DNA of 64,000 bases, taken from a virus. Under the pieces are notes generated by a model. It was not told the DNA's origin. It made no database searches and worked only from the letters and a program-made list of their open reading frames with translations. Location: the IMG/VR virus record IMGVR_UViG_3300012988_000001, positions 182,414 to 246,413 of that record. The stretch is one strand, 5' to 3'. How positions within the stretch are numbered: position 1 is the first letter of the stretch; every line of letters starts with the position of its first letter. Position numbers and translations under genes: made by a program. Below, piece by piece: positions 6,130-7,181 of this stretch.

Positions 6130-6288
6130 TTATTGTTTGTTTTCTTTAGTTACCTTTTTGTTGTATGCACGAACCAGAAGATCACGTTCATTTGTAGGCA
6201 TGTTAAGTAGCATCTCATAATTGGTATTAGTGATATACGCTGCTATTTCTGCAAGTGATGACTTTATCTCCTTGACATTCAGTTCCAT
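6130..6288 (-). CDS. Small ORF downstream of gp26, probable -1 frameshift extension (gp51 position)
   Basis: A 52-codon ORF (ATG at 6288) lies in the -1 frame relative to gene 26. In that frame the reading is open upstream as far as a slippery TTTTTTC at 6348-6342 inside gene 26, giving an extra 18 residues whose helical pattern (KPEEISKVISD) runs smoothly into the ORF (MELNVKEIKSSLAEIAAYI). A ribosome slipping -1 would make a gp26 fusion of about 350 residues. An independent start is also possible, with an AAGG box 11 bp before the ATG. In T4, gene 51 follows gene 26, so this is the gp51 position, although the ORF is much shorter than T4 gp51. The arrangement resembles the G/GT tail assembly chaperones next to a tape-measure gene. 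Confidence 0.65.
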   Translation of the reverse strand: MELNVKEIKSSLAEIAAYITNTNYEMLLNMPTNERDLLVRAYNKKVTKENKQ

Positions 6289-6305
6289 ATCACTAATGAC
6301 CTTGC

Positions 6306-7181
6306 TTATTTCTTCTGGCTTTGAGATGAGAAGCTGTATCCGAAAAAATGTGTAGGATCATATTTCAATCCAGTAATTGTCCATTCATGCGAACACTCTG
6401 AACATTGCACATCCATTTCATGACTAATCCCAACTTCTTGGATTTTGTCAGTCTCGTCACGAACTTCTTTAAGTGTTGCTTTAGGTAGCGAACTTACCCA
6501 TTCTGAAATAAATTCTTTTTCTACTACTTCTGTTCCATCAGGTGTATCAATTTTTTCAATACTATCAACAATCATATCAAAGTTTAGTTGAGTCATTGCT
6601 TCAAACACTTCTGTGAACAATTTCTTCTTCTGTTCAACAACTTCGTCCGAATCACCTTCCAACATATCAATGTATTCTGATTTCTTTTGTTCTTGGAACA
6701 TACGTTGACTAAAGTCGCTATATTCATTCCATGTATAAGGTTTAAAATACACTTTTAGACCATTAGAAAGTTCTAGAGATGGTTGTTCACTAAAATAACT
6801 CATGCTATCTAGTAGTACTTGAAGATCTCGACTAAAAGCACCTTCATGACTGCAATGAGGGCAGGTTGTTTGAATTTCGTAGTCTTCTTCCTTGGATGCC
6901 ACTTTAATCGCAATTAAAAGTTGCTCAACATCGTTAACATAAAGACCACCAGCATCATTAACACCCGGCACACAGTTCTCGATAACACGAATTACGGCCT
7001 CTCCACTAATTAATGCATCAGGTGTGTTTAGCATGATCTCATCACGTGCTGCACGAGCACATACTCCAAGTTTAATTTTTTCAACAACATCTTTATTGTA
7101 CTTAATGATATTGTTAGAAGCTAGTTTTACAAAGATTTCTTCAATCTTAGTGTACTGGGCTAAAGGGTTCATCTTACTCAT
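6306..7181 (-). CDS. 26: Baseplate hub/assembly protein gp26-like (T4_baseplate family)
   Basis: The 291-residue protein shows the family layout I associate with T4 gp26 relatives: an N-terminal helical part, a zinc-type CPHC pair near residue 111 (TTCPHCSHEGAFSRDL), the segment LKVYFKPYTWNEYSDFSQ, and a second C-terminal pair CSEC (VQCSECSHEW) near residue 259. In T4, gp26 and gp51 are needed for hub assembly around the tape measure. The start at 7181 follows a GGAG box. The gene is read from a late promoter at 7217-7224 and faces away from the tape-measure candidate at 7235. Near its 3' end it carries a slippery TTTTTTC in the correct phase for -1 frameshifting. Confidence 0.75.
   Translation of the reverse strand: MSKMNPLAQYTKIEEIFVKLASNNIIKYNKDVVEKIKLGVCARAARDEIMLNTPDALISGEAVIRVIENCVPGVNDAGGLYVNDVEQLLIAIKVASKEEDYEIQTTCPHCSHEGAFSRDLQVLLDSMSYFSEQPSLELSNGLKVYFKPYTWNEYSDFSQRMFQEQKKSEYIDMLEGDSDEVVEQKKKLFTEVFEAMTQLNFDMIVDSIEKIDTPDGTEVVEKEFISEWVSSLPKATLKEVRDETDKIQEVGISHEMDVQCSECSHEWTITGLKYDPTHFFGYSFSSQSQKK
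6342..6348 (-). other. Candidate -1 ribosomal frameshift site (T TTT TTC)
   Basis: On the minus strand the zero frame reads CAT TTT TTC GGA, so the heptamer T TTT TTC fits the X XXY YYZ rule. It encodes Phe279-Phe280 of gp26, 12 codons before its stop. After a -1 shift the frame stays open for 18 codons, through the ATG at 6288, to the stop at 6130. Confidence 0.65.

Follow-up and report, generated by a model that had tools for sequence, protein, structure and literature searches.

A probable frameshifted tail assembly chaperone pair at the gp26 locus of a jumbo phage and its relation to gp26 and gp51 of phage T4

Introduction

The slippery sequence of the lambda tail assembly chaperones gpG and gpGT is G GGA AAG, and the contractile-tail phage P2, whose E protein has about 90 residues, shifts into the -1 frame on T TTT TTG. 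For the T4-like phages, the abstract of the 2022 study by Vladimirov and colleagues is said to name genes 26 and 51 as the tail assembly chaperone (TAC) genes of T4 and to report frameshifting in several groups. Neither of the two lambda products is present in the virion, the long form serves as a bridge between the tape measure and the tube protein, and the shift that yields P2 E+E' is 2- to 3-fold more efficient than that of lambda (PMC5009743). The same review, published in 2016, describes G-T frameshifting as widely conserved 'except T4' (PMC5009743). That some T4-like phages have one TAC gene for the short form and another for the long form is described in a paper that cites Vladimirov, Gautam and Davidson 2022 (Virology 566:9-15) (PMC10885494), and a second paper, with reference to the same study, describes frameshift signals of the poly-T type within TAC-N genes of T4-like phages (PMC12846349). 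As far as these citing papers convey it, a T4-like TAC pair with a frameshift was thus published in outline in 2022 and the principle is known. In the open literature, in which the 2022 study is represented by the papers citing it, we found no description of such a site in RaK2-like phages.

Here, we present the gp26 locus in a stretch of 64,000 nucleotides, referred to as the window, which is part of the 366-kb record of a jumbo phage (IMG/VR record IMGVR_UViG_3300012988_000001, positions 182,414 to 246,413). This phage is most closely related to Salmonella phage Munch and further members of the RaK2-like group. On the basis of sequence comparison and of analogy with lambda G/GT, we assign a probability of about 0.9 to the reading that the locus encodes a pair of tail assembly chaperones, consisting of a short form and a long form made by -1 frameshifting. 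Frameshifting, its efficiency and the chaperone role are what we infer from the evidence given below.

Results

The gp26-family gene of the window lies on the minus strand (6306..7181) and starts with ATG. Its zero-frame product of 291 aa, the putative short form (TAC-N), matches PF12322 (T4_baseplate) with 92.4 bits against a cut-off of 24.5 (E 4e-26) and phrog_150 over profile positions 2-224 of 282 (E 1e-29). The C-terminal part of phrog_150 that is missing from this product is what an extension in the -1 frame would supply. The heptamer T TTT TTC is situated in phase at 6342..6348 (minus), in the context ...CAT TTT TTC GGA..., with TTT in the P site and TTC in the A site, 40 nt ahead of the stop codon. 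Past this site, the zero frame continues for a tail of 11 codons and TAA (6306..6341, minus) that is variable in relatives. The -1 frame opens 49 nt ahead of the zero-frame stop and runs through to the TAA at 6132-6130; after the slipped TTT TTT, the extension (6130..6342, minus) starts with CGG at 6342-6340 and comprises 70 codons. The initial annotation had drawn attention to an in-phase T TTT TTC at 6348-6342 and to a -1 reading open to 6130, and we could confirm both from the sequence. The conceptual fusion, which would be the long form (TAC-NC; 6130..7181, minus), has 350 aa. Within the extension, an internal ATG at 6288 opens a 52-aa ORF (6130..6288, minus; phrog_18291) that is usually annotated as a separate hypothetical gene and whose start is not conserved. 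An apparent intrinsic terminator, GCCAGC..GCTGG followed by a T run, can be read directly after the -1 stop (6105..6129, minus), and because this hairpin and T run follow immediately past 6130, gp26 and the extension form one apparent transcription unit. The stretch just 3' of the locus (window 5900-6063) is a dispersed intergenic repeat, four other copies of which are found in the genome at 74-86% identity (G000:C1:269704, 108128, 41347 and 332827).

Most ribosomes would read gp26 to its stop and produce the 291-aa short form. A minority would slip by -1 on T TTT TTC, where the tRNA-Phe in the P and A sites would re-pair to TTT TTT, and would go on to produce the 350-aa long form, the last ~70 residues of which would make up a small helical C-terminal domain. 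We consider it most likely that the two tRNA-Phe slip in tandem on U UUU UUC. RNA structure downstream of the site was not significant in the window (single-sequence fold, z 0.47), and the consensus fold of 16 relatives contained no pairs, so that no shared stimulatory structure was found; one strong single-sequence fold occurred in a cyanophage (L047, z -3.4). A GGCTC/GAGCC hairpin is present a few bases 3' of the heptamer in some relatives; it has no shared register and we do not claim it as a stimulator.

Taken alone, the gp26 heptamer is mildly unusual in the window and a weak signal. An in-phase XXXYYYZ is found in the last 15 codons of seven of the 75 window ORFs with at least 100 codons, and in two of these seven, gp26 and one other, the -1 reading is in addition 55 codons or longer. 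TTTTTTCG occurs 14 times across the whole 366-kb record. The second case in the window is a DHFR-like gene that overlaps an RNase-HI-like gene by TAATG (57615-58552, plus); T TTG GGG stands in phase just before its stop and the arrangement resembles ordinary coupling. It is the comparative evidence across relatives that puts the gp26 site far beyond chance.

The loci compared were those of 16 annotated relatives, three close IMG/VR loci, cyanophages and other phages, and 143 IMG/VR loci that two profile scans had returned. T TTT TTC or T TTT TTT in phase at most 40 nt from the gp26 stop, combined with a -1 extension of 62-81 codons, was present in 160 loci (142 usable IMG/VR loci, the window and 17 annotated phages) with 141 distinct extension sequences. 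Every RaK2-like jumbo phage examined is among them, as are other jumbo phages and T4-like cyanophages. None of the 142 usable IMG/VR loci lacks the heptamer, which reads T TTT TTC in 132 and T TTT TTT in 10 of them; in the first set of relatives, only XacN1 departs from an in-phase T TTT TTC near the gp26 stop, its site reading T TTT TTT. The site is also present in Vibrio phage K575, Stenotrophomonas phage Moby and phage SRB7757. In the cyanophage S-RIM8, gp26 ends with AGT TTT TTC GGA TAG and the -1 frame holds an ORF annotated as 'baseplate hub assembly catalyst', i.e. gp51. In jumbo phages, the spacing between heptamer and stop ranges from 10 to 40 nt. A scan of IMG/VR for KVP40-like loci returned none. 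The initial annotation had proposed to check related gp26 genes for conservation of TTTTTTC and of the -1 ORF, and both are conserved, the heptamer being found in the 160 loci with the -1 frame open behind it.

Codon usage at the site was evaluated across the 139 distinct loci that are complete. All of them have T immediately ahead of the first Phe codon, at a gene-wide frequency of T at third positions of ~41%; the first Phe codon is TTT throughout (~73% expected) and the second is TTC in 131 loci (~27% expected). Gene-wide, 73% of the Phe codons are TTT, and other conserved codons show normal synonymous variation, whereas the slippery codons are fixed. A conserved poly-T run could also point to a frame change by RNA polymerase, which would slip on the run and leave an extra or a missing U in the mRNA, and a few relatives do have seven or eight T in this position (L159-L167). 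In most loci, however, the run consists of only six T followed by C, and six T are short for slippage by a bacterial polymerase. Furthermore, the phase and the Phe-Phe pair are kept exactly, both of which are demanded by tandem slippage on the ribosome and neither by slippage of the polymerase. We therefore regard polymerase slippage as extremely improbable.

According to another explanation, the small ORF is an independent gene whose own ATG is used once the gp26 stop has been passed, through re-initiation or translational coupling, and the heptamer is incidental. The window indeed contains such an ATG, TAATG-type overlaps are present in phages BF, 121Q, K575 and Moby, a separate gene is annotated in most records, and Pseudomonas phage Cygsa01 combines a TAATG overlap with the lack of a heptamer. 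However, the first ATG past the shift site is found at positions between codon 3 and codon 50 across the 139 distinct loci (codon 20 in the window, 32 codons into the extension in RaK2) and is missing from one locus. The -1 frame opens only 0-75 nt ahead of the heptamer, and this stretch is devoid of a start codon in 137 of the 139. The outcome is the opposite of what had initially been named as evidence against frameshifting, i.e. a heptamer lost in relatives that keep the start of the small ORF: the heptamer is conserved and the start is not. In the RaK2 record, the extension is unannotated and no small gene is given. In many other records, it is entered as a hypothetical protein of its own or under the name 'baseplate hub assembly catalyst', and the start codons assigned to it differ.

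Substitution patterns between the shift site and the first ATG bear on the same question. In cyanophages, pN/pS in this stretch is 0.25/0.78 in the -1 frame and 0.38/0.29 and 0.38/0.27 in the other two frames, in which nonsynonymous changes exceed synonymous ones. Pooling of all jumbo phages was uninformative because of indels and the analysis was therefore redone in the gapless RaK2-like clade, where the pN/pS ratio amounts to 0.45 in the -1 frame as compared with 1.09 and 2.51 in the others. By this measure, amino-acid selection acts on the codons upstream of the ATG of the small ORF, and it does so solely in the -1 frame. A separate gene cannot account for selection ahead of the point where it starts, and the invariance of the heptamer codons likewise speaks against an independent gene, which we consider very unlikely. 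Four sequence-based tests agree on frameshifting, namely the fixed slippery codons, the late opening of the -1 frame without a start, the shifting ATG and the selection in the -1 frame. Together with the conserved heptamer and the open -1 frame, they support the original proposal that the phage would make gp26 and a -1 fusion of ~350 residues; the fixed ratio of the two that was part of this proposal is a supposition.

Two groups of loci depart from the usual site or frame. In Ackermannviridae (L174, L199-L213) and in Cygsa01 (L029), the -1 extension is conserved and there is no tandem heptamer; the site reads (G/C) ATT TTC with the stop one codon later, as in GAG ATT TTC ATT TAA of Ackermannviridae, in Cygsa01 along with the TAATG overlap. 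Given the lack of a tandem heptamer, the extension would be reached in these phages either through the slip of a single tRNA, a type of shift so far undescribed, or through re-initiation. In Synechococcus phage S-SCSM1 (L027:2150-2374), T TTT TTC is kept at the end of gp26 and the conserved extension is found in the +1/-2 frame, a placement that would fit a -2 shift like that of Mu or an indel in the record.

T4 genes 26 and 51 are divergent neighbours, 51 not being located downstream of 26. Both products belong to PF12322, and gp51 is the longer one and matches phrog_150 through position 280. A profile of the fused jumbo-phage proteins aligned with T4-type gp51 over 251 columns and through the junction (E 8e-10), and that of the fused cyanophage proteins did so over 254 columns (E 2e-18). 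The alignments remain in register across the shift site, with SFFRIALL.. against DVFKLLVN... When the extension alone was compared with the C-terminus of gp51, the match had an E value of 2e-9 for cyanophages and a weak one of 9e-4 for jumbo phages. T4 gp26 and gp51 are paralogues, and gp51 joins a gp26-like domain to a C-terminal part that has its homologue in the -1 extension. In consequence, the small ORF would be the C-terminal part of the long form and not a 'gp51-position' gene; its initial designation as such is contradicted both by the divergent orientation of T4 gene 51 relative to 26 and by the restriction of the match to the C-terminal part of gp51. The accompanying description of T4 genes 26 and 51 as separate neighbours holds insofar as they are neighbours, and fails where it implies a gene order like that of the small ORF, since the two are divergent. 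Near its stop, T4 gp26 reads GAG TTC TTT GAG and contains no heptamer, and a near-stop T TTT TTC is absent from all 10 readable gp26 neighbours of gp51 in the 12 IMG/VR loci with gp51. Homology with gp51 and lack of the heptamer in T4-type gp26 together indicate that the same short/long pair is encoded by one frameshifted gene in some phages and by two genes in others. A frameshifted single gene may have been ancestral in the T4 supergroup, with the T4 lineage arriving at 26 and 51 by duplication and in-frame fusion and a third group (Ackermannviridae, Cygsa01) keeping the extension without a tandem heptamer, but we put this scenario forward as a tentative and rather doubtful one.

AlphaFold modelled the window gp26 with a mean pLDDT of 87; residues 283-291, which belong to the zero-frame tail, scored below 50 and are predicted to be disordered. 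In the model of a gp51 (from L178, pLDDT 88), the part past the junction is predicted to form three helices (207-221, 226-230 and 234-248). Fold and sequence searches of the PDB with both models returned nothing beyond chance. As no solved TAC structure was matched, the kinship with lambda G/GT is one of arrangement and not of fold. A search of BFVD with the gp26 model yielded members of the same family and larger uncharacterised jumbo-phage proteins. The latter comprise uncharacterised proteins of 384-553 aa from phiRSL1, Motura, Special G, Eowyn and other large phages, which, going by the predicted models, may be unrecognised tail chaperones of these phages.

If the pair acts like lambda gpG/gpGT, the N-terminal part found in both forms would coat the tape measure or a hub protein, the C-terminal domain, being rare, would bring in tail-tube subunits, and both forms would leave before the virion is completed. 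The divergent neighbour of gp26 (7229..9448, plus) encodes a virion structural protein of 739 aa (phrog_14121, E 3e-227) that is a plausible candidate for the tape measure, which the initial annotation had placed across the divergent promoter region. Its RaK2 homologue is noted as tape-measure-like, and a search of the phage's own genome with the family of gp29, the T4 tape measure, gave no match. In the virion mass spectrometry of phage CBB, the homologue of this neighbour, CBB_251, was abundant with 29 peptides (PMC5259590). CBB_250 and CBB_249, the homologues at the gp26 locus, were not detected among the 55 CBB virion proteins of this single experiment, a non-detection only (PMC5259590), and their being missing from the table is as expected of a chaperone. 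It counts against the alternative that the slip is real but gives rise to a component of the baseplate or hub instead of a transient tail chaperone. Family annotations that read 'baseplate hub' would fit such a component, as would T4 genetics, which have been interpreted as assigning gp26 to the hub and gp51 to assembly only (PMC3004832). On the other hand, T4 gp26 and gp51 are tabulated as hub assembly chaperones (PMC3004832) and a TAC assignment has been published for T4-like phages, as relayed by PMC10885494 and PMC12846349. On balance we consider a hub component unlikely and prefer the chaperone pair.

Discussion

The present work adds to the published outline the jumbo-phage case, quantitative tests of conservation and selection, and two exceptions. 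The small 'hypothetical' or 'gp51' genes that follow gp26 in jumbo phages and cyanophages would mostly be the C-terminal part of a frameshifted chaperone and not genes, and many annotations should therefore be corrected. Our results also support the published view, as it is conveyed by the papers citing the 2022 study, that the standing of T4 as an exception to tail frameshifting is explained by its paralogous genes 26 and 51. In one frameshifted gene versus two genes for the same protein pair, these phages offer a natural experiment.

With lambda gpG/gpGT, the locus shares the arrangement of a short and a putative -1-frameshifted long form. The slippery sequences differ, G GGA AAG in lambda and T TTT TTC in the window, no kinship in sequence or fold was detected, and the putative tape measure of the window is encoded on the other strand. 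P2 E/E+E' is similar in that a -1 shift takes place on a T-rich heptamer, but P2 E belongs to an unrelated family of short proteins. T4 gp26 and gp51 are homologous to the two forms over their full length, gp26 corresponding to the short form and gp51 to the short domain plus the C-terminal part; in T4, however, they are the products of two divergent paralogous genes without a heptamer, whereas the window would use a single frameshifted gene. The TACs of T4-like phages, as the study of Vladimirov et al. 2022 is represented in the papers citing it, belong to the same gp26/gp51 protein family, and the window differs from them in having one gene with a -1 extension that is divergent from the neighbouring structural genes.
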